NCBI RefSeq assembly: GCF_000020525.1
Contig: NC_011026.1
Coordinates: 1,904,001 to 1,968,000, forward strand
DNA: 64,000 bases
Reading direction: 5' to 3'
DNA from: Chloroherpeton thalassium ATCC 35110
GTDB lineage: Bacteria; Bacteroidota; Chlorobiia; Chlorobiales; Chloroherpetonaceae
Translations under genes and position numbers: made by a program
The notes under the pieces: generated by a model
What the model was told of the DNA's origin: nothing
What the model saw: the letters and a program-made list of their open reading frames with translations, nothing else
Databases searched by the model: none
Shown: positions 42,121 to 55,391 of the stretch, one piece after another
How the letters are laid out: each line of letters begins with the position of its first letter
How positions within the stretch are numbered: position 1 is the first letter of the stretch

Positions 42121-44343
42121 GTGCAACGAAAATATTTATCCTCACTTCTCCAAATCTTAGTCGGGTGCTTTTTAACAGCCGCAGTTAGCACAGACGCGTT
42201 TGCTCAGCAAGACACAACTTCCCTGAAAGACATCTTTTCGCAATTCTCACTAAAAAACTTGATGGATGTGAGAATTGTGACGGTATCTAAGAAAGAAGAG
42301 CCGGTCTTCGAAGCCCCACTTTCTTCAACGGTGCTTACAGCAGAAGAAATCAAAAATGCGGGAGCAACATCCATTATGGAAGCGTTGCGCTTGGTGCCGG
42401 GCGTCATTGTTCGTGAGCAAACCCCGGGCAATTATGATATTCACATTCGCGGCTTTGATGCGGTGAATCCGTATCAGCCACAGTTCACGCGATTTAACAC
42501 CATTACATTGGTGATGATAAACAACCGAATCGTCTATAATCCGCTTTTTGGCGGCACCCTTTGGGATCTTTTGCCAGTTAGCATAGATGATGTAGAAAAA
42601 ATCGAAGTCGTGCGAGGCCCAGCGTCGGCGCTTTATGGTCCAAATGCAGCGGCTGGCGTTATTAACATCATTACCAAAAAGCCGAATTTGGATGCGGGCT
42701 GGCACGGCAGCACGTATTCGCAAGTGGGCACATATCATTCCTATTTGCTGAATGCCGCCGCCAACTACGCTTCTGAGGATAAAAAATGGGGCGTTCGCGT
42801 AAGCGGTTATCACGACTATCGCCGCCGCCATTATGTCGACTATTATACATTTCCCGATGTATATGCAGCGTTGAACGGCGACGAAAACTATTTTCGCTCC
42901 GCCTATCGTTCAACACCTTATTTAGGAAGCGATGGCCAGCCGAACTCAAATGCCTCAACGCTTTTTCCTGATTTGGACAAATCCATGGATAGATATTCGC
43001 TTCATGCGGATGCCACGTACAAAGATGGCGCGCTTGACTTGAATTTTTCAAGTGGATTTACCCGCTCCTGGGTTCAGCGTCCGTACCTTGCGCCTTCCAG
43101 CTACATGCTGACGACAGAAGAAAATGAAAATGAATACGTTCATATTTATGGAACATTTGAAAATCTCACGTTCAGTGCAGACTATTCGAGCTTGCGAAAT
43201 AACACCTTAGGCGCTTTGGATTATTCGTTGCACTCGTGGAACGCAACGGTCGACTATAACCTAATTCTTTCTGAATCGGCCAGTTTTAAGCCCGGTGCGG
43301 CAATTCAAAGATATACGGCGATTTCCAACCAATCATCGGCGTATGTCTCCTATTCTCCGATTGTTGATTTGGAAGATTTTGAAGATGGCGATGGTTCTGA
43401 AGCCAGCAATACGTTTTTTTCGGTCTTCGGGCGCTTCGACTATTCGTATAAGCGGTTTCGTTTTGTGGCAGGGCTTCGCGCTGATAAATATGAATATCCC
43501 GATAGAATTTTTGTCAGTTCCCAACTGCTAACAACGGTCATGCCTTCCAATGATGTGCTTCTGCGCGCTTCTTACGGGCGTTCGGGTCGTGCTCCGTTTG
43601 CCACCAGCTTGTTTGCCAATTTAAACCCAACAGAAACCATCGGCGCGCAGTTGATTTCAAATCCAGATAAAAAAGAACTCCTTACGGTGGATGTTTTTGA
43701 AATTGGCTCTCGCATCAAGTTAAGTGATAAGTGGTTATTGGACGCGGAAGTCTTTTATGCCTTAGCCGACGATTTTGAATCCGTAGCCGTGAATGCTTTT
43801 GTTGACCTGACGGAAGAAGGTGAGGTTAAGGATATTGTTCCGCAGTTTGAATACATCAATGGCTCATACAACGCCAAACAATATGGTGGTACCATCACTT
43901 TAAAATACATTCCTAACGAAACCATTCAACTCAGTGGGTTTGTGACTGTTCAGGAGACCCGCGTCGATAACTACGATTATCAAAACGGTTTTTTTGAGAA
44001 TGCAATTTTGCCTGCAAGCACCACCGATAGTTCCTTTGTTGTTCAAGCTACACCCACTTTTTATGGTGGCATGAATATGACGTTCAAGCCAGTCAAAAAA
44101 TGGCAACTGAACTTGAACGGTTATTTCTACGATTCCCAAGTTTTTACGATTGCAGAAGCCTCGCTGAAAACATTCAAGATAAAAGGGAATTTCCTGCTGA
44201 ATACTGTTGTCAGTTATGAACTCACCGATAAAGTGAAGCTGTTTGTGAATGCACGAAACTTGATTGGCGGGAACAAGCGGCAATACGCTATGTCAGATAG
44301 GATAAAAATGACGATGTTGGGTGGCGTGAGTGCGCAATTTTAA
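42121..44343 (+). CDS. TonB-dependent outer membrane receptor (copy 1)
   Basis: A 740-residue TonB-dependent receptor. GTG 42121 begins VQRKYLSSLLQILVGCF, a signal peptide ending AFAQ-QD. A TonB-box-like RIVTVSKKEEP lies near residue 60. The plug domain follows (TVLTAEEIKNAGATSIMEAL, RGFD, VVRGPASALYGPNAAAGVIN), then a 22-strand barrel ending in an aromatic residue (GGVSAQF). It takes up or senses an unknown ligand across the outer membrane using TonB energy. Copy 2 is 242 bases downstream with a nearly identical plug but diverged barrel. No Shine-Dalgarno is visible. No known riboswitch precedes it. Confidence 0.93.
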   Translation: MQRKYLSSLLQILVGCFLTAAVSTDAFAQQDTTSLKDIFSQFSLKNLMDVRIVTVSKKEEPVFEAPLSSTVLTAEEIKNAGATSIMEALRLVPGVIVREQTPGNYDIHIRGFDAVNPYQPQFTRFNTITLVMINNRIVYNPLFGGTLWDLLPVSIDDVEKIEVVRGPASALYGPNAAAGVINIITKKPNLDAGWHGSTYSQVGTYHSYLLNAAANYASEDKKWGVRVSGYHDYRRRHYVDYYTFPDVYAALNGDENYFRSAYRSTPYLGSDGQPNSNASTLFPDLDKSMDRYSLHADATYKDGALDLNFSSGFTRSWVQRPYLAPSSYMLTTEENENEYVHIYGTFENLTFSADYSSLRNNTLGALDYSLHSWNATVDYNLILSESASFKPGAAIQRYTAISNQSSAYVSYSPIVDLEDFEDGDGSEASNTFFSVFGRFDYSYKRFRFVAGLRADKYEYPDRIFVSSQLLTTVMPSNDVLLRASYGRSGRAPFATSLFANLNPTETIGAQLISNPDKKELLTVDVFEIGSRIKLSDKWLLDAEVFYALADDFESVAVNAFVDLTEEGEVKDIVPQFEYINGSYNAKQYGGTITLKYIPNETIQLSGFVTVQETRVDNYDYQNGFFENAILPASTTDSSFVVQATPTFYGGMNMTFKPVKKWQLNLNGYFYDSQVFTIAEASLKTFKIKGNFLLNTVVSYELTDKVKLFVNARNLIGGNKRQYAMSDRIKMTMLGGVSAQF

Positions 44344-44369
44344 CGATAAGTTAATGGTTGTTATGAAGC

Positions 44370-44396
44370 ATTCCCTACCGCTTTAAGGTAGGGAAT
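44370..44396 (+). terminator. Hairpin between the two receptor genes, weak terminator
   Basis: ATTCCCTACC (44370-44379) and GGTAGGGAAT (44387-44396) form a perfect ten-pair stem with a seven-base loop. T's follow only after a gap (44406-44413), so termination may be partial. Confidence 0.6.
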
Positions 44397-44585
44397 TAGC
44401 TGATTGATTTTTTAAGATTTATCTCTTCGGTGGATTTTATTATGTTTATAATTTTATATGCTTATATTGTTTTTGATGCGTTTTAAAAGGTGTTTGAAGT
44501 GAGCAGATATTCAGTAAAAAATTCTTATATTTGAAGTCTCAATAAGTTTTTTCATAGGCAAAAACAAGAAAAACCACTACAACTC

Positions 44586-46769
44586 GTGCTGAACAAATAC
44601 AAATCTTCTTGGTTCTGGTTTCTGGCTGCTACATTTCTCGCAACAACATTTAGCACGGAAGCATTTGCTCAGCAAGACACTACTTCTCTCAAAGATATCT
44701 TCTCACAGTTTTCACTGAAAAGTCTAATGGAAGTGAGAATCGTAACGGTATCAAAAAAGGAAGAACCCATTTTTGAAGCGCCGCTTTCCTCGACTGTACT
44801 CACCGCTGATGAAATTAAAAACGCAGGTGCAACCTCCATCATGGAAGCCTTACGGTTAGTTCCTGGTGTGATCGTTCGTGAGGAAACACCGGGTAACTAT
44901 GATATTCACATTCGTGGCTTCGACGGTCTTGATCCGTATGCACTTGGCATTCAGAAAATCAACACCACAACGCTTGTGATGGTTAATAACCGCATCGTCT
45001 ACAATGATGCGTTTGGTGGTACGCTTTGGGATGTTTTATCGGTTGGCATCAACGATGTAGAAAAAATCGAAGTGGTTCGTGGTCCTGCAGCCGCCTTATA
45101 TGGACCAAATGCCGTTACCGGTGTTATTAACATCATTACCAAATCGCCCAATCAAAAAGCGGGTTGGAGTGGAAGCACGTATTCTCAAGTTGGCACATAT
45201 AGCACGTACTTAGCTAATGGAGCGGTTAATTATGCAACAGAAGACAAAAAGTTTTCTTTCCGCTTGAGCTCCAGCATGGAAAAACGCGATCGTCAGGAAG
45301 TTGATTATTTTGTGCTTGGTAGTGAGTCATATAGCGCAACCCCTGAATATTTTTCTGATGGCCGAACAAATACACTGGTAGATGAGCAATTTCCTGATTA
45401 TGAATTGGCGACGGATAATTACTCCATGTATGCGCATGGTAAATATGAGGACGAGGATTTAGAGCTAAATATTTTAGGCGGCGTTTCTCGCTCCAAACTT
45501 CAGCGGCTTTATTTCATGAGTAGCGACTACACGTTGTCTACTGAGAAAAATGAATCGGAATTTACCCAACTGGCTGGTGAATGGAATGGCTTCACCTTTA
45601 ATACGGATTACACCAACACACGCAACAACACGCTCAAGACATTTGACTTCACCGTTAGAACATTCAATGTAAACGTTGATTATAATATTCCGATAACTGA
45701 AAGTTTTAGCATCAAGCCGGGTTTATCTTTTCACTATGTTAAGACTATCTCCAATGATAGTACACTCCTTTTCTCTGATGAAATCATCACTGACAGAGAA
45801 GAGTTAAGCACACGAAATGGGATGAACTCAAGCGTAACAAATACGACAACATCCGGGTTTGTTCGCGGTGAATATTTTATAAACAAGCTGCGCTTAATCG
45901 GGGCTTTGCGTTTGGACAAGTTCAACACCCCAGATAAATGGCTACTGTCTCCTCAAATTTTGGCAACGTATCAAGTCGATCGAGACCTCTTGCTGAGAGC
46001 TTCTTATGGACGAGCCGCGCGGACGCCGTTCTCTGCTAACTTGTTTGCGAAGTTTATCCCTGATTATAAAACAACGTTTGTTTACCTGTTATCTGGGGAA
46101 ACAATACCAGACGAGTTACTTGTGATTGATATTTTTGAAATTGGTGGAAGAATGAAGGTTAGTGATAAGCTGTCTTTCGATGTGGAATTATTTTATGCCG
46201 TTGGCGATGATTTTGAAACGATTGAAATATCTGGCGGTGACCCAAGCGTAATTATTAACCCGAGCTCACCGATATTATTTAGTTATGCTACGAGTACAAT
46301 GACGGCGAAAAATTATGGTATGACATTGTCAATGATGTACACTCCGTTTGAAAAAATGTCTTGCAAAGCGTATGTGACACTCCAAGAATCAAAAATTGAT
46401 GATTATAACGTATCGCAAAATGTGGTATGGCGTGATATAGAAGATGCCAGTGATTCTTCTTTCACCAGCGAGAATACGCCAACCGTTTTTGGTGGATTCA
46501 GCATCAACTATTTGCCCGCAAAAAAATGGACGCTCAATCTGAACTCATATTTTTACTCGGCTCAAGTGCGTACCTTAGCTGGTGTAACTGCTGCAAGCGA
46601 AGATATTAAAGCAAATATTTTACTAAATACCGTGGCATCCTATGAGATAGCTGATGGTATCAAGCTATTTGCAAACGCGCGAAATTTGCTCGGTGGTAAT
46701 CGGCGTCAATATGGGATGTCGGATAGAATAAAAATGACGATTTCGGGTGGCTTGAATGCTACTTTTTGA
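44586..46769 (+). CDS. TonB-dependent outer membrane receptor (copy 2)
   Basis: A 727-residue paralogue of the preceding receptor, also from a GTG start and with signal peptide ending AFAQ-QD. The first 190 mature residues (SLKDIFSQFSLK, RIVTVSKKEEP, TVLTADEIKNAGATSIMEAL, VVRGPAAALYGPNAVTGVIN) are almost the same as copy 1. The barrel and its loops have diverged, and the C-terminus again converges (FANARNLLGGNRRQYGMSDR). This is the pattern of a duplication followed by change in ligand specificity while the energy and signalling face is kept. It is the gene nearest to the downstream YfiR-TonB-kinase genes. Confidence 0.93.
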   Translation: MLNKYKSSWFWFLAATFLATTFSTEAFAQQDTTSLKDIFSQFSLKSLMEVRIVTVSKKEEPIFEAPLSSTVLTADEIKNAGATSIMEALRLVPGVIVREETPGNYDIHIRGFDGLDPYALGIQKINTTTLVMVNNRIVYNDAFGGTLWDVLSVGINDVEKIEVVRGPAAALYGPNAVTGVINIITKSPNQKAGWSGSTYSQVGTYSTYLANGAVNYATEDKKFSFRLSSSMEKRDRQEVDYFVLGSESYSATPEYFSDGRTNTLVDEQFPDYELATDNYSMYAHGKYEDEDLELNILGGVSRSKLQRLYFMSSDYTLSTEKNESEFTQLAGEWNGFTFNTDYTNTRNNTLKTFDFTVRTFNVNVDYNIPITESFSIKPGLSFHYVKTISNDSTLLFSDEIITDREELSTRNGMNSSVTNTTTSGFVRGEYFINKLRLIGALRLDKFNTPDKWLLSPQILATYQVDRDLLLRASYGRAARTPFSANLFAKFIPDYKTTFVYLLSGETIPDELLVIDIFEIGGRMKVSDKLSFDVELFYAVGDDFETIEISGGDPSVIINPSSPILFSYATSTMTAKNYGMTLSMMYTPFEKMSCKAYVTLQESKIDDYNVSQNVVWRDIEDASDSSFTSENTPTVFGGFSINYLPAKKWTLNLNSYFYSAQVRTLAGVTAASEDIKANILLNTVASYEIADGIKLFANARNLLGGNRRQYGMSDRIKMTISGGLNATF

Positions 46770-47458: not shown

Positions 47459-48391
47459 ATGAATCAAAGATTTTGGACATATCTATTCGCGATTTCCTTT
47501 CTTGTGCTACTCCCCACTGTTGTATCTGCACAGGCACGGCTTTTGGGTCAAGTCACAGATGCTGATGGCAACCCAATTGTCGCCGCTATTGTTTCGCTTT
47601 CAGGAAAAGGCCGTACCGGTGCTGTTTTAACCAATAGTCAAGGTTTTTATACGTTTCTATCGTTGCCGGTTGGCGAGTACAGTGTTCGGGCTGTCAAAAG
47701 CGGTAAGCAATCAAGAACATTTAACTTTTCGCTTGCTGATAAAACAACCGTCATGATGAATTTAAACATTTCGCCGGAAGCGATACTGCAGGAGGAAAAG
47801 GAAGAATCGTCGGTAGTTGTTGATGCTGGAAAAAAAGCAAAAAAGACCAGAGTTATAAGGCAGGTTCCGAAAAAAGTGGTTCGTAAGGAAGTCGCTGAAA
47901 AAGCAAACAAGAAAGAAGAAAAGCCTGTTCAACTTTCTCAAAATAAAGCGACAGACGTTTCAAAAAGCGATGACGTAGCTGTGCAAGAAACAGAGCAAGA
48001 AGTGCTAGAAATTATTGAGGGTCAGGTAGAGAGCGAAAATCTGGAAGCTGCTTTGCGGGTCGCAGAGGAAGAGGAAATGGTTTCATACTCAGGATTCGAA
48101 AAAAGTCCTGAAATTATTGGCGGCGTAGAGGAGATTTATAAATACCTTGAGTATCCGCTGTCAGCCAGAAACACACCAAAGCCAGTAATGGTCATTGCCA
48201 AAGTATTTGTTGATCAAAACGGATATTTGAAGCGAGTTGACATGCTAAAAAATGGTCCTCGTGTATTCAACGAAGAAGTCTATCGTGTCTTAACGGAAAA
48301 AATCAAGTATAAACCCGCTGATGTGGATTCAAAACCCATCCCAGGGTCTTTAACTTTTGTTGTCAATTTTTCACCGGAAACTCAAGAATAG
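47459..48391 (+). CDS. Secreted CarboxypepD_reg-TonB C-terminal domain fusion
   Basis: A 310-residue exported protein. The signal peptide (VLLPTVVSAQ) is followed by a carboxypeptidase-regulatory-like beta-sandwich (ARLLGQVTDADGNPIVAAIV, GFYTFLSLPVGEYSVRAV). Then comes a long charged linker rich in Lys and Glu (about 115-205), and a TonB C-terminal domain (PEIIGGVEEIYKYLEYPLSA, VFVDQNGYLKRV, VYRVLTEKIKYKPADVDSKP). Ordinary TonB keeps an uncleaved N-terminal helix that couples it to ExbBD; here the signal looks cleavable and no other membrane helix exists. It may act as a soluble adaptor that grips the TonB box of the adjacent receptors. No exbBD lies nearby. Confidence 0.82.
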   Translation: MNQRFWTYLFAISFLVLLPTVVSAQARLLGQVTDADGNPIVAAIVSLSGKGRTGAVLTNSQGFYTFLSLPVGEYSVRAVKSGKQSRTFNFSLADKTTVMMNLNISPEAILQEEKEESSVVVDAGKKAKKTRVIRQVPKKVVRKEVAEKANKKEEKPVQLSQNKATDVSKSDDVAVQETEQEVLEIIEGQVESENLEAALRVAEEEEMVSYSGFEKSPEIIGGVEEIYKYLEYPLSARNTPKPVMVIAKVFVDQNGYLKRVDMLKNGPRVFNEEVYRVLTEKIKYKPADVDSKPIPGSLTFVVNFSPETQE

Positions 48392-48418: not shown

Positions 48419-50146
48419 ATGGAGCAAAAAGAAGTTTCTCAAGATGCAACAGCTGCAAACTATACGCAAAAAGGGTATGGTGAGCTTATTATCTACGCAT
48501 TAATTTTCATTTCTCTTGTTGCGGCTATCTTCGCTTTCAACATTATGCTCTCAAACAAGAGCCGGGAAGATACGCTGCGGATTTACTGTGCAACCCACCA
48601 ACAGCGTTCATGGCAAAAAGCACTAAAAAGCCTTGAACAAGCACGCATCGCGCTATTTACGATGGCGCCTACCGAAAAGCCATTTCAAGAATTCAGCAAG
48701 TCGATCAATTCATTTGATTTATACCTAACAACGCTGGTTAATGGTGGACAGATCACGATCAATGACAATGAGGTGATCGGTGGAAAACGAGGCGTGAATG
48801 CTGAGAACACCGTGGGCGAGAGCAAAACCGTGACGGTGAAACCGCCAGAAGATCCGGCGATGCTGGAAGTTATTAATGAGCTCAATACTGTTTGGGAGGC
48901 TGGAAAAAACGACATGCTCAAGTTGTCGAGTGAAGTGGCAGAAGGTAAAATAGACACTTTGCTGATAGAAAGAATGCTTGAGTATACTGTGCGAGAAGAT
49001 GACAGCGTGCTGGATGCGTGTCAGGAATTTATCGTGAAGTTAGGTCAGCAATCTGATGCGCGAGGCATAGAGCTGCAATCTTTTCAGGTGGCATCTTTGA
49101 TACTGAGTTTGATTGTCTTTATCGCCATGCTCTTCCGAAGCACGGTGGCGCTGAAAAATAGAGACAAGGTTATTAATGAACGAACAGCGGAAGTGATTCG
49201 GCAGCGCGACACGATTGCAGAAGAGAAAGTGTTGGTTCAAAATCTCCTTGCCGATTTGCAGAACACCCAAGCGCAGTTAGTGCATTCTGAAAAAATGGCG
49301 TCTTTGGGTCAAATGGTCGCTGGACTTGCACATGAGGTTAATACCCCACTTGGTTTTGTAAAAAACAATGTGGAGGTTATTGAACGAAATCATGGGATTT
49401 TTTCTCAGGCGATCGAAGAGAATCAGAAGTTGGTCAAAAAATTAACCGACGGTGATGTTGATGATCTGCAAGAGCAGCTTTTTAAAGTCATGGAAGTATC
49501 GGAGCCGATTAATTCCTTCAATCTCATCGAAAAAACGAGGCATCGGATTGATGAATCGATTATGGGATTAGATCGAATATCTGAGCTGATCATCAACTTG
49601 AAAAACTTCTCGAGGCTGGATGAGGCTGAGGCGAAAACCGCGCAAATCAATGAGTGTATTGATAGCTCTCTGATTATTGCTAAAAACGTGGTCAAACACC
49701 GTGCCGAGGTTGAAAAAGATTATGATCCTAACGCGGTTGCAGAGTGTTTCCCCGCACAGCTCAATCAAGTGTTCTTAAACTTGATTACAAATGCCGCGCA
49801 AGCTATTGAGGTTGACTCGAGTGAGAATGGCGTTTCAGAAAGAAAAGTTGGGAAGATTATTATCACAACGGCAATTGAGAATGATTTTGTTTTGATTAAA
49901 TTTCAAGATAATGGCAAAGGCATTTCTCCTGAAAATCTCAAAAGAGTCTTTGAGCCATTTTTTACCACAAAGCCTGTTGGTGAAGGGACAGGATTAGGGC
50001 TTGCCATTGTAATGAAAATTATTGAACATCATGGTGGCAAGATCACCGTTAAAAGTGGTGTAGGTAAAGGGACGGTGTTTGAAGTGAGAATACCGAAGAA
50101 ATTATCTGAAAAGCATAAGTTCGAAGTGGACTATCAAATTCTTTAA
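48419..50146 (+). CDS. Membrane sensor histidine kinase with PilJ/NarX-like periplasmic domain
   Basis: A 575-residue kinase. Helix 1 (about 22-44, LIIYALIFISLVAAIFAFNI) and helix 2 (about 223-245, LILSLIVFIAMLF) bracket a 180-residue periplasmic domain. That domain has a pattern (HQQRSWQKALKSLEQARIAL, FDLYLTTLVNGGQI, VINELNTVWEAGKNDML) resembling the PilJ/NarX-type helical sensor. A coiled coil leads to the H-box MVAGLAHEVNTPLG with His305, then FLNLITNAAQAI (N-box), FQDNGKGISPENL (G1) and GEGTGLGLAIVMKI (G2). All catalytic parts are intact. It lies 27 bases after the TonB fusion gene and 26 bases before the response regulator, its likely partner. Confidence 0.9.
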   Translation: MEQKEVSQDATAANYTQKGYGELIIYALIFISLVAAIFAFNIMLSNKSREDTLRIYCATHQQRSWQKALKSLEQARIALFTMAPTEKPFQEFSKSINSFDLYLTTLVNGGQITINDNEVIGGKRGVNAENTVGESKTVTVKPPEDPAMLEVINELNTVWEAGKNDMLKLSSEVAEGKIDTLLIERMLEYTVREDDSVLDACQEFIVKLGQQSDARGIELQSFQVASLILSLIVFIAMLFRSTVALKNRDKVINERTAEVIRQRDTIAEEKVLVQNLLADLQNTQAQLVHSEKMASLGQMVAGLAHEVNTPLGFVKNNVEVIERNHGIFSQAIEENQKLVKKLTDGDVDDLQEQLFKVMEVSEPINSFNLIEKTRHRIDESIMGLDRISELIINLKNFSRLDEAEAKTAQINECIDSSLIIAKNVVKHRAEVEKDYDPNAVAECFPAQLNQVFLNLITNAAQAIEVDSSENGVSERKVGKIIITTAIENDFVLIKFQDNGKGISPENLKRVFEPFFTTKPVGEGTGLGLAIVMKIIEHHGGKITVKSGVGKGTVFEVRIPKKLSEKHKFEVDYQIL

Positions 50147-50172: not shown

Positions 50173-51189
50173 ATGTATAAGGTCAATATGGAAAAGCCCC
50201 ATGTTTTAATAGTCGATGATGAGCCAATGGTGCTATCATCAGTTGCTGATTTGCTGGAATTTGAATATGTGGTTCATCAGACCCATAATCCATATACGGC
50301 ACTGGAAATTTTGTCCGATTTTAGCCTTCCTATAAAGGTCATTATGAGTGATCAGCGAATGCCTGGAATGTATGGACATGAGCTTCTGCGGGAAGCCAAA
50401 AAGCTGAGGCCAAACGTGATCAGATTGCTTTTGACTGGTTATTCCGACCTCGAATCAATTATGTATTCTGTTAATGTCGGTGAAATTTTTCGTTACATCA
50501 ATAAGCCTTGGCGCTCTGATACTCTCTTAAATGTCTTTAAGCTTGCGGTTAAATTACACGATCAAATGACGCAACTTGAAGATGAGAGAAAGCATACTTA
50601 CCACAAAGATTTAAGCGCAATTCCAACTACCCACACACGAACCTCCCAAATTGAAATTGAAGAAGATAAAGAAATCGTCCTGTTTGTTGGGTACGATGAG
50701 GAGTTGGTTCAGCAATGCAGAACTTGTTTGGGTGGAAAATATGCGGTTATTAGCCTTTCAAGTGTTGATGATGTATTCAAAGAAGTTGCCCAGCATTCCG
50801 TTTCGGTGATTGTCAGCGAAATTAATCTTCAAGGTTATGACGCGGTTGATTTTTTAAGTACGATCAAGAAAGATTACCCGCACATTGTAACCGTCATTCT
50901 CACAAATGATGTGGATGCTTCGTTGGCTATTCGCGCAATTAATGAGCTAAATGTATTTCGATATCTAACTAAGCCCATTAAAGAAGCCACGTTTCGTCAT
51001 GTCATTGAAGATGCAGCCAGCAGAAGCAGGGAATATTCCAGCAAGTCTAAAATGAACTTGTATCATGCGGCAGCTTTTGAGCGTGAAGCAACTATTGATG
51101 GGCGACACAGAAGTTCGGTGGAAGCTGATTTGCGAGAAAAACTAAAAGCCGCTCAAGCCGCTTTAACCAAAAGAATTCGGAATTCATAG
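50173..51189 (+). CDS. Two-receiver response regulator, second receiver with Glu
   Basis: A 338-residue protein with two receiver domains and a helical C-terminal tail. REC1 (about 9-125) is complete: LIVDDEPMV, phospho-acceptor D60 in IMSDQRMPGM, T in LLLTGYSD, K in YINKPWRSD, which is the RpfG/HD-GYP-like type. REC2 (about 164-285) has FVGYDEEL, then VIVSEINLQGYDAVDF with Glu216 where the acceptor Asp should be, while VILTND and YLTKPIKE are kept. Glu at this site often mimics phosphorylation. No DNA-binding or enzymatic output is visible; the tail AADLREKLKAAQAALTKR-like helix may bind a partner. ATG 50188 is an alternative start. Confidence 0.87.
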   Translation: MYKVNMEKPHVLIVDDEPMVLSSVADLLEFEYVVHQTHNPYTALEILSDFSLPIKVIMSDQRMPGMYGHELLREAKKLRPNVIRLLLTGYSDLESIMYSVNVGEIFRYINKPWRSDTLLNVFKLAVKLHDQMTQLEDERKHTYHKDLSAIPTTHTRTSQIEIEEDKEIVLFVGYDEELVQQCRTCLGGKYAVISLSSVDDVFKEVAQHSVSVIVSEINLQGYDAVDFLSTIKKDYPHIVTVILTNDVDASLAIRAINELNVFRYLTKPIKEATFRHVIEDAASRSREYSSKSKMNLYHAAAFEREATIDGRHRSSVEADLREKLKAAQAALTKRIRNS

Positions 51190-51290: not shown

Positions 51291-54200
51291 TTATTTTTTG
51301 ATAGGCAGGGTAAAATAAAAGGTAGAGCCTTCTCCGAGCACAGATTCCACGCGGATGTTGCCGCCATGGCGATTGATAATCCGCTTGCAGGTGGCAAGTC
51401 CAATCCCGCTGCCGGATGTCGGAACGGTATCTATCACTTTGCTGAACAGATCAAAAACATGCTTTAAATTTTCTTGCCCGATGCCAACCCCGTTATCGGA
51501 AATCGAAAATTCATACACAGAACCTGCTTTTTTAGCACTAATTGAGATTTTTGGTTGAGAAGCATCGTTGTATTTGATCGCGTTCTCCAAAAGATTTTGA
51601 AAAACCCGAACCATCTGCTCTTCATCAACATGAAGCGACGGCAAATCTCCAATCTCAATGTCTGCGTGTTTCTCTTCAATGAGGCCTTGCAAGTTTTTCA
51701 ATGCAGAACGCAGCGAATTGCAAATGCTGGCTTTTTTTAGCGTGAGCTCTCCCGAAGAAACCTTTGAATAATCAAGCAGTGCATCGATAAGCCTTGTCAT
51801 GCGTGAAGTGCCGTCAAGCATCAGGTTTGTGTATTGTTGATACTCGCTATTATTTTTCTCGGCGAACTCATTTTGCAGAAGTTCAGCATAGTTTGAAATG
51901 GTGTGAATCGGTTCTTTCAAATCGTTCGCGGCAATAGCTGCAAATCGTTCCAAATCCTCGTTCGATGTTTTTAATCGCTGAAATTCTGTCTCAAGCTCTT
52001 GTTGATGCTCGCGCTGCAAAGTAATATCTTCAAGCACGCCGATGATGGTTTCCAATTCACCCTTGTGATTAAAATACGCAATGCCTCTGTCGTGAAACCA
52101 AATGTAGTGGCCGTCGTCGTGTCGATACCGACATTCGACATCAAAGTTTGCCTTGCCTTTTTTGACCCGCTCAAATTCCTTCTGATAAATTTTCACATCT
52201 TCTGGATGAATCAGACTGTAACGAAATTGCAGCTCAGGCTCAAACTCGTCGATATCGTAGCCTAACATTTCTACGCCTGTCCAAGTTGTAAAATCTTTTT
52301 TATGCTCATATTCATAAGTAATTTTTCCGATGGTCATAACCAGCGTTTGTTGCTTTCGAAGCAAGCGCTGCATGGTCTTTTGGGCTTCTTTGAGTTCAGA
52401 AATATCGAGCATGGCACCCACAACCCTAACGGTTTTCCCGTGTGAATCGCGAATTGGCAAACACCAATCCAACACATAAGCCAGTGAGCCATCGGCTCTA
52501 TAAAAATGATATTCTTCTTTCCAAATGCCCGATTTGTTATGAATATGTTCATCAAGCGATTCAGTGACGCGCTCCCAATCGTTTGGCCCGATCTTATTAG
52601 ACCACCACGCTTTAGAGTTTTCAATTCTGCCGTTGGAATAGCCAAAAGTTTCTTTCATTTTGCCGCTCCAAATAGTGGTATCTTCAATGATATCCCAATC
52701 CCTAACGGCAACAGATGTTGCTTCGATGACGAGTCCTTTCAACCGGTTGCTTTCAACAGCTTCTTTCGCGCGTTCTTCAACTGCTTTCTCCAGATCCTGA
52801 TTAATTTCCTTGAGTTTTTCTTCAGCCTGTTTCAGCTTGTCGATATCAATAAAAGTGATGACCGCGCCTTCGATCGTATTTGCCGAATTGCGATAGGGCA
52901 AAATTCGCTGGAGCATCCATTTTCCTTCATGAGTTTGCACTTCCAGGTCGTGCGGATTGCCTTGCTCGATGACCATGCGGATGTCGCGCAACATGCTGTT
53001 GTGGCCTTGAATATTGTAGGCAATGTGTTCAATCGGACGGCCAATGTCTTGTGGCAACAAATTGAACGGGCCTGCAATGGCAGGGGTGTATTTCCGAATT
53101 CGAAGTTGCGGATCCACGAAAACGGTGCCGATTTCAGTCGAGCGAAGCAGGTTTTCCATGTCGTCGGCCAGTTGTTCAAGCTCGCTGTTTTTGCGCTCAT
53201 ATTCCGCATTGACCGTGTAGAGCTCTTCGTTTACAGAATGCAGCTCTTCGTTGGTGCTTTGCAATTCTTCGTTCGAAGCCAGCAATTCCTCGTTGGTTGC
53301 CTGCAATTCCTCGTTGCTGGTTTCCAATTCCTCAACGGTTGTTTGCAAATGCTCTTTGGTATATTGAAGCTCTTGTTCCAAATAAGCGATTCGCTCTTTG
53401 GAAACTTCGCTGGCATCAAAGGATTCGCCGCCTTCAATAATCTCTTGCGGTTCATGCGCTTTAGCAATTGCGCCAGAGGGCGACAGCAAAATCAGGTAAT
53501 AATTTTGAACACTGCCCCGAACTTGAAGCGGTTCAATTTCCAAATCGATACGCTCCTTTAGGCGCGCGGATTGAACCATGATGGATTTATACTTCACGCT
53601 CACATTGTCCTTGATGCAGCGTTGCAAGGCGGACGTAAGAGCAATGCGCAAATCGCCGTCAACTAAATTGAGCACATCAGAGCTGAGCCGGCCAGAAATG
53701 GTTTTGAAAAAACGACCTGCATCGCCGAAAGCATGAAGCAACTGGCGATTTTCGCTGATGAGCAGCCCGGGCGGCATAAAGCGCTCGAGCAAATGATCAT
53801 AGGCACGGAGCAATTTCATATCGCCAGGCACGTTTTGCAACGGTGGTGCCGGATGAAAATTTGAAACGAGATTGCTCGGTGCGCCCAGCGTCAGTCGCAT
53901 GTCGGTTGGCAAGCGAACGTCGCGTTTTTTTCTAAAAATTTTCCACGAACGCTCAATCGTGTCGAACTCATCTTCAAACGCGCCAAGATTTTCGCTTGAG
54001 CCGAGAAAAAGATAGGCTTTATGTTTCAACGCGAAATGGAACATGGCAAGCGCTTTGCGCTGCGCCACAATTTGGAAGTAAATCAGCAGGTTTCGGCAAG
54101 AAACCAAATCGATTTTAATAAACGGCGGATCAGTCAGGACATTTTGCTCCGAAAACACAATCAATTGGCGAATGTGAGTGTTGGCTCGGTAGCGTCCGTT

Positions 54201-55391
54201 TTCCCGATGGAAGTATTTTTCTTTTAAATCTTCAGATAAATTTTCCAGTTCGGCTTCGTCATAAATGCCATCGCTGGCAATGTCTAAAGACGCGCGGTGA
54301 ACATCGGTTGCAAAAATTTTCAATTTGATGCGGTTGTTCAGGCTTTCGGCGACTTCGCTAAAAAGGATCGCGAGTGAATAAGCCTCTTCGCCAGTTGCGC
54401 AGCCGCAAACCCACGCACGAATTTCTTCTTCTTTTTCCTCGCTGGCGCGGCGAATGATTTCAGGAATAACCCGTTCGCCTAAGGCTTCAAAGGCTTTCGG
54501 GTCGCGAAAATATTTGGTAACGCCGATGAGCAGATCTTTATAAAGGGCGTTGAGTTCTTCCGGGTCTTGAACCAAGCGTTGGTAATAAGGTTCAATCGTA
54601 TCGAAGCGAAGAATATTCATGCGGCGTTCAATGCGCCGATCAACCGTGGTGGGTTTGTAGAAGCCGAAATCGATCTTGTATTTGTCTTTTAATAGGCGAA
54701 AAACTTCGGAGAATTTTCCCGTAGGGCCGGTTTCATACTTCATCATCCGGCTCACATCTGCGCCTTTGAGCGAGTGATCGGCGTGGTCGCGCAAAACATC
54801 GGGCATGAGTTCTGGCTCGGTAATGACATCCACCAAGCCGGTTTCAATCGCGCTGCGTGGCATGCCATCAAAAGCAGAAGATTCTGGACTTTGGACAATA
54901 ATCAGGCCACCAGCTTGGTGAAAATCGATTAAGCTGCGAGAGCCATCCGAGCCGGTGCCGGAAAGAATAATGGCAACGGATTTATCGCCCGCGTCTTGAG
55001 CCAACGAACGAAAAAAGGTGTCAATCGGCAAACTGAACTGCGCTTGGTCTTTATCGCTTAGGCGCAGCCTGCCTTGTTGGATAATCATGTCTTTTTTGGG
55101 CGGAATGAGGTAAATGTTCCCCGCTTCCACCATCATGCCGTCGATGACGCGGTGAATTGGCATATCGGTGTGGCGAGCCAGAAGCTCGTCCATCAAACTT
55201 TTGAAATCAGGCGAAAGATGCTGGATGATGACGAAAGCCATCGAGCTGGTTTTCGGCATGTGGTCAAAAAAACGCTCTAACGGGTCAAGCCCGCCTGCTG
55301 AAGCGCCAATGCCAATAATGTGGGTAAGGTTTGCATCGAAGGATGATTCTTGCAGATCATTCTCTTCTGGATTTTGCGGAAATACTGTCAT
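51291..55391 (-). CDS. CheB-CheR-PAS-histidine kinase fusion with Asn for the H-box His
   Basis: A 1366-residue cytoplasmic multidomain protein. The CheB methylesterase domain (about 20-205) has Ser in [14 protein letters not shown], His in [13 protein letters not shown] and Asp in [10 protein letters not shown] CheR methyltransferase (about 225-490) has [16 protein letters not shown] and [10 protein letters not shown]. Then a long heptad coiled coil (about 660-750, repeats of TNEEL/SNEEL), a PAS10-like and two further PAS domains, a degenerate H-box, and an HATPase ([35 protein letters not shown]). The H-box reads [16 protein letters not shown]: Asn1156 (codon at 51924-51926) replaces the phospho-accepting His of the ASHDLKEPL motif. 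The ATP site is intact. Such proteins modify chemoreceptor-like targets; this one probably cannot autophosphorylate at the usual site. Confidence 0.9.

Follow-up and report, generated by a model that had tools for sequence, protein, structure and literature searches.

A probably secreted protein with a TonB tail in a receptor, YfiR and histidine kinase operon of Chloroherpeton thalassium and its possible part in receptor signalling

Introduction

What can a TonB C-terminal domain do on a protein that appears to be released into the periplasm? This question is raised by an open reading frame of Chloroherpeton thalassium ATCC 35110, which lies in a stretch of 64,000 nucleotides (the window, i.e., the whole stretch that was analysed) of a genome consisting of a single contig of 3,293,456 bases. 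The nearest named relatives of this genome are a Chloroherpetonaceae MAG and Ca. Thermochlorobacteriaceae bacterium GBChlB. The original prediction described a secreted protein in which a charged linker connects a CarboxypepD_reg (CP) domain to a TonB C-terminal domain (TonB_C), likened it to the front of a receptor fused with the tail of TonB and offered three functions: a sensor of the receptor plug, a relay to another energised partner or a decoy for TonB boxes. In the following we call this protein CP-TonB_C and suggest that it probably helps to report ligand binding by the receptors rather than to power transport.

Results

Domain organization of CP-TonB_C

The reading frame and the predicted order of signal peptide, CP domain, charged linker and TonB_C were confirmed (Table 1), the last domain by way of the protein family. 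In the profile search that had been proposed, PF13620 lies above its cut-off, whereas PF03544 reaches 18.3 bits (E 0.0033, residues 229–305), which is below the curated cut-off of 24.6. Relatives score above this cut-off with 46.5 (L041), 53.9 (L040) and 43.3 (L212) bits, as does a protein in which CP-TonB_C is fused to YfiR (43.1 bits). In addition, the profile of the CP-TonB_C family matches solved TonB C-terminal domains, for example, 6i97_D (E 8.1e-6, 77 positions). Since relatives of the same plan score 43–54 bits and the family profile matches the solved domains over their full length, the weak score is settled by the family, and judged from the sequences a TonB C-terminal domain is present.

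The structure model of the protein has a mean pLDDT of 43.7, was computed from an alignment of three rows and falls below a pLDDT of 50 at residues 94–221. The best 22 Foldseek rows of this low-confidence model are TonB-type or TolA C-terminal domains, none of them at E ≤ 0.001, and were taken as support only. A second membrane segment was not found in the protein.

Table 1. Coordinates of the operon, of the parts of CP-TonB_C and of natural fusion proteins. Positions without a locus handle refer to the window.
Feature	Position	Strand	Basis
TonB-dependent receptor 1	42121..44343	+	Pfam; 52% identical to receptor 2
TonB-dependent receptor 2	44586..46769	+	Pfam: Plug and barrel, no CP, no STN
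YfiR/HmsC-like periplasmic protein (DUF4154), 178 aa	46844..47380	+	PF13689, 28.5 bits, cut-off 24.9
Secreted CP-TonB_C protein, whole gene	47459..48391	+	Open reading frame, ATG start, 310 aa
Signal peptide, residues 1–24	47459..47530	+	Sequence; family-wide small-Gln site; cleavage between A24 and Q25 inferred
CP domain, residues 28–102	47540..47764	+	PF13620, 54.7 bits, above cut-off (32.3)
Lys/Glu-rich linker, residues 103–228	47765..48142	+	Sequence; low pLDDT
TonB C-terminal domain, residues 229–305	48143..48373	+	PF03544 under cut-off; family profile matches PDB TonB C-terminal domains
Histidine kinase, periplasmic sensor between two hydrophobic segments	48419..50146	+	HisKA and HATPase_c
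Response regulator, two receiver domains	50173..51189	+	PF00072, two stretches
CP-TonB_C-YfiR fusion	L046:8829-10130	-	CP 23–99, TonB_C 209–284, DUF4154 292–430, all above cut-off
YfiR-kinase fusion	L170:6079-8409		Pfam
YfiR-kinase fusion	L171:6112-8244		Pfam
YfiR-kinase fusion	L172:6168-8549		Pfam
YfiR-kinase fusion	L173:4232-6514		Pfam
YfiR-kinase fusion	L174:3024-4964		Pfam

Probable secretion and absence of an anchor

The N-terminus of CP-TonB_C reads MNQRFWTYLFAISFLVLLPTVVSA followed by QARLLG. A likely signal-peptidase-I site lies between A24 and Q25, with V-S-A at positions −3 to −1; the predicted signal peptide was therefore borne out, although its end has to be corrected from VSAQ to VSA and the mature protein begins at about Q25. 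The hydrophobic segment leads directly into the first CP strand. Of the 45 family members examined for this site, 41 show the strand motif. In 39 of these, a small residue and then Gln occur at most eight residues from the first CP strand; shuffled N-termini give such a site in 7% of cases. The four members lacking the strand motif are L205, which is truncated, and L208–L210, whose N-termini read SQGRLFG by eye. A lipobox is absent in all 45 members. According to PMC5837995, Gln at +1 is predicted in 55% of the signal-peptidase-I substrates of C. thalassium.

ExbB and ExbD are not encoded in the operon. They adjoin other TonB-like genes of the same genome, at L039 and L043, and in the products of these TonB-like genes an N-terminal tail precedes the hydrophobic segment, which starts at residue 58 in one and at residue 33 in the other. 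An ordinary TonB whose N-terminal hydrophobic stretch stays uncleaved as an anchor would agree with this stretch lying near the start of the protein, as it does in E. coli TonB, but is very improbable here, as the small-Gln site is kept right at the CP domain, the ExbBD-TonB loci are separate from the operon and the segment contains no His where the motor motif SHLS would sit. SHLS is described as the TonB motor motif in PMC12204202. Thus, the small-Gln site at the domain junction, the missing lipobox, the frequent Gln at +1 and the anchored TonB-like proteins elsewhere in the genome make it very likely that CP-TonB_C is secreted, and the claim that a TonB tail is carried here by a secreted protein with no anchor is supported.

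The operon in the window

Six genes follow each other on one strand in the order TonB-dependent receptor (TBDR), TBDR, YfiR, CP-TonB_C, histidine kinase and response regulator. Between receptor 2 and the response regulator, the genes are separated in turn by 74, 78, 27, and 26 bases. By Pfam, both receptors consist of Plug and barrel alone, without a CP domain and without STN. They form a tandem pair (42121-46769), both have a GTG start as called, and their N-terminal segments are nearly identical where the TonB box is presumed to lie. Neither FecR/FecI nor an OmpA-like outer-membrane lipoprotein was found by Pfam among the six genes; a diguanylate cyclase was not found in the operon, a histidine kinase being in its place. 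The periplasmic sensor of the kinase has no confident Pfam family (one of the four members has a weak match to PilJ, E 0.071), and no output domain was found in the response regulator. A promoter and terminator scan found 18 against 19.6 expected and 10 against 9.2, and gave no informative signal. On the other strand and facing the operon, the window encodes a CheB-CheR-PAS-histidine kinase fusion of 1366 aa (51291-55391).

Conservation of the operon and the link to YfiR within the order

The order YfiR, CP-TonB_C, kinase and regulator is kept in two further genomes (G001 and G007), with CP-TonB_C proteins that are 45–47% identical. A receptor is present beside the G007 copy and none is next to the G001 copy. 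A third genome (G003) keeps regulator, CP-TonB_C and kinase; YfiR is missing there, as is a neighbouring receptor. When a profile of the kinase sensor was searched (46 match rows in 12 genomes), the four closest matches came from G001, G000, G003, and G007 and all lie beside CP-TonB_C; by contig coordinates none of the remaining rows is near a listed CP-TonB_C place.

Pfam DUF4154 was found in 3 of the 98 genomes of the order. Run over these 98 genomes, a more sensitive YfiR profile gave five matches with E < 1e-57, all from the three genomes that Pfam had picked out; the match that follows has an E value of 0.004. All five of these strong YfiR-like genes are adjacent to or fused with CP-TonB_C, and four have a receptor within two genes. 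As shared operons are related by descent, these are not five independent events but a single ancient association that several branches have retained. In the fused case, CP, TonB_C and DUF4154 are joined in a single polypeptide of GBChlB (L046, Table 1), and here, too, a receptor gene adjoins.

For the model of the YfiR-like protein (pLDDT 66.8), Foldseek listed no YfiR structure in its best 50 rows and found no significant match (E ≤ 0.001). An ABC substrate-binding protein occupies the two top rows, and a fold of this type is the kind of neighbour reported for YfiR (PMC4655355). Among the PDB sequences the YfiR profile did not match the solved YfiR; its best match, a designed protein, was taken as spurious.

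The CP-TonB_C family

From 44 stretches read we obtained at least 45 distinct full-length CP-TonB_C proteins of the order with one common plan. This family size is a lower bound, since in most genomes at most six first-look candidates per genome were scored. The idea of a one-off composed of a receptor front and a TonB tail is not supported, given this family and the absence of a CP domain from the receptors of the module. Searching 41 genomes gave matches in 15, some of which are just CP domains of receptors. In a sample of 394 genomes of the phylum, the full-length proteins among the matches listed are from this order and from one other family (f5: G041, G045, G049, G053), and the listed matches in other phylum genomes cover mainly the TonB_C half, with the CP half in two rows. 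A search with an alignment of three rows returned six loci, two true orthologs and four matching mainly in the CP half; a search for related loci with an alignment of 17 rows revealed no conserved patch.

When the 45 members were placed in a tree, all YfiR-linked ones fell into a single clade of 12 (98/86). At a distance of up to two genes, YfiR is found in 5 of these 12 versus 0 of the 33 other members, a TBDR in 6/12 versus 3/33, a kinase in 4/12 versus 3/33 and a regulator in 4/12 versus 1/33. Four members of the clade have none of these neighbours (L188, L191, L193, L194) and two have the receptor as the sole one (L054, L205).

Outside the signalling clade, CP-TonB_C genes are adjoined by M23 peptidases at L055:7288-8568, L053:7425-9080, L199:6799-8079, L052:9629-11005, and L041:5775-7175, which may point to a further role of the family alongside enzymes of the cell wall. 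At L196:4016-5692, an S41/CtpB-type protease gene immediately precedes another family member; similar neighbours in L197, L198, and L201 were recognised by length and start alone. A CP-bearing receptor adjoins the member at L040. Side-by-side CP-TonB_C genes occur in one genome each as a group of three (L053:9043-12332) and as a pair (L047:8328-10103).

Receptor, YfiR and kinase across Bacteroidota

In the phylum sample, DUF4154 occurs in 38 of 394 genomes at 58 places. All of these sites and three more from the order were read, and 60 of the 61 gave an open reading frame. A receptor is adjacent on the same strand at 37 of these 60 sites, and a kinase is adjacent or fused at 33. Outside the order, both counts stand at 33 of 55, and at 24 of 55 sites, spread over 22 of 36 genomes, receptor and kinase both lie within two genes. 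Among 102 background genes of the same stretches, one is beside a receptor and two are beside a kinase. The gene calls are mechanical (longest open reading frame), so that the neighbour counts are lower bounds: a short frame on the other strand was called at the YfiR site of G390 and of G161 and no frame at the second site of G052, all left as misses, and the two side-by-side sites of G152 and of G346 were counted separately.

In five Bacteroidota genomes YfiR is fused to the kinase as its periplasmic front (Table 1); Pfam confirms all five, and each has a receptor gene upstream. From the adjacency counts against the background and from these fusions it follows that TBDR-YfiR-kinase is a recurrent gene neighbourhood of Bacteroidota. 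Beyond the order, not one of the 55 YfiR sites has CP-TonB_C as a neighbour; this lineage added the secreted TonB tail.

Discussion

The natural fusions draw a chain from TonB_C to YfiR and from YfiR to the kinase. We estimate with a probability of about 0.5 that the full chain is correct, i.e., that a soluble TonB_C adaptor reports the state of the receptor via YfiR to the kinase. Secretion of CP-TonB_C and its membership in the module are well supported, whereas the binding steps are inferred. Upon removal of the signal peptide, CP-TonB_C would be a soluble periplasmic adaptor. Its TonB-like domain would bind the TonB box of loaded module receptors; this step builds on the published behaviour of TonB and FhuA, as it is reported that a soluble TonB fragment binds FhuA and that ferrichrome raises the affinity of TonB for FhuA (PMC11658791). 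Because CP-TonB_C has no ExbBD anchor, it would transfer no force and its binding would be a read-out. The other partner of the adaptor may be the YfiR-like protein, as suggested by gene adjacency and by the one natural fusion. YfiR in turn may act on the histidine kinase of the inner membrane, as suggested by adjacency, by the five YfiR-kinase fusions and by the report that YfiB captures YfiR at the outer membrane and that YfiR bridges this outer-membrane protein and the inner-membrane YfiN (PMC4655355). With a logic similar to that of YfiBNR, the YfiR available to the inner-membrane enzyme would change once YfiR is captured at the outer membrane, and the kinase would phosphorylate the double-receiver response regulator.

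The proposed system shares single features with several known ones. As in YfiBNR of P. aeruginosa, a periplasmic protein of the YfiR family would connect a partner at the outer membrane to a signalling enzyme of the inner membrane; however, instead of the OmpA-like lipoprotein YfiB and the diguanylate cyclase YfiN there are receptors, a secreted CP-TonB_C and a histidine kinase. A TBDR heads a signalling operon as in FecA-FecR-FecI signalling, but the receptors lack STN, FecR and FecI are missing, and a soluble TonB_C, YfiR and a two-component pair are present. With the TonB energy transducer CP-TonB_C has in common the C-terminal TonB domain with its YP start and conserved core, and it differs by the putatively cleavable signal peptide, the CP domain in front and the lack of an anchor and motor motif. 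Finally, the CP domain directly behind the signal peptide resembles the SusC/CP-domain receptors of Bacteroidota, in which plug and barrel take the place of linker and TonB_C.

Several observations count against the full chain. The TBDR-YfiR-kinase neighbourhood exists without CP-TonB_C, the G003 copy lacks YfiR as well as a receptor next to it, and the G001 copy lacks a receptor. Of the 12 clade members, four lack all of these neighbours and two have the receptor alone, and the five YfiR links share a common descent. In addition, there are the peptidase neighbours, the TonB_C score below the cut-off and the non-significant fold searches of the YfiR-like protein.

In part, these observations would suit a general periplasmic or peptidoglycan scaffold that links envelope proteins by beta-strand addition, with no reading of the receptor; its role in this operon would be confined to the placement or stabilisation of YfiR or of the kinase sensor. 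The M23 and S41/CtpB-type peptidases beside other family members and the G003 copy with its kinase and regulator speak for such a scaffold, and the peptidases are suggesting a broader adaptor role of the family. On the contrary, the enrichment of receptor and YfiR neighbours in the clade of 12 and the receptor gene beside the fused TonB_C-YfiR protein speak against it, and we regard this alternative as rather unlikely.

Appreciably less probable is that CP-TonB_C extends the receptors in trans, an anchored TonB contacting the CP domain while TonB_C holds the TonB box of CP-less receptors, so that energy is relayed. The absence of CP domains from the module receptors would fit, as would the implication of CP domains of Bacteroidetes receptors in TonB contact (PMC12204202, citing Pollet 2021), but YfiR, kinase, regulator and the TonB_C-YfiR fusion are left unexplained and the receptor beside the family member at L040 has its own CP domain. 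Even more doubtful is a decoy that throttles uptake by competing with anchored TonB for TonB boxes, in favour of which a soluble TonB fragment can bind a receptor (PMC11658791) but which gives no reason for the kinase operon and the YfiR fusion. Among the three functions offered originally, the plug sensor fits the context best because of the run of receptor, YfiR, kinase and regulator and because of the YfiR-TonB_C fusion in a relative; nothing in the present analysis favours the relay to an energised partner, and the decoy is ranked low.

Each of the domains is already known, as are the three parent components, and their combination was not found in the literature searched: in titles and abstracts, with a search that covered a minor part of the subscription papers, we found no description of YfiR and a kinase in combination with a soluble TonB tail. 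If the binding steps were shown, reporting by CP-TonB_C would represent a third route of receptor signalling. Tentatively, and with less confidence than for the chain in this operon, we propose such a third route of envelope signalling, in which a soluble, unenergised TonB_C reads the TonB box exposed on a loaded receptor and YfiR passes the signal to the kinase of the inner membrane, the Bacteroidota neighbourhood being the parent system. The natural fusions, TonB_C-YfiR in one genome and YfiR-kinase in five, name the specific pairs. If true, proteins without a mechanical function would read TonB boxes, receptors devoid of STN would still be able to signal, and the TonB tail would have been reused as a sensor of the ligand state. 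The TBDR-YfiR-kinase neighbourhood would then be a receptor-sensing pathway that is spread through Bacteroidota.
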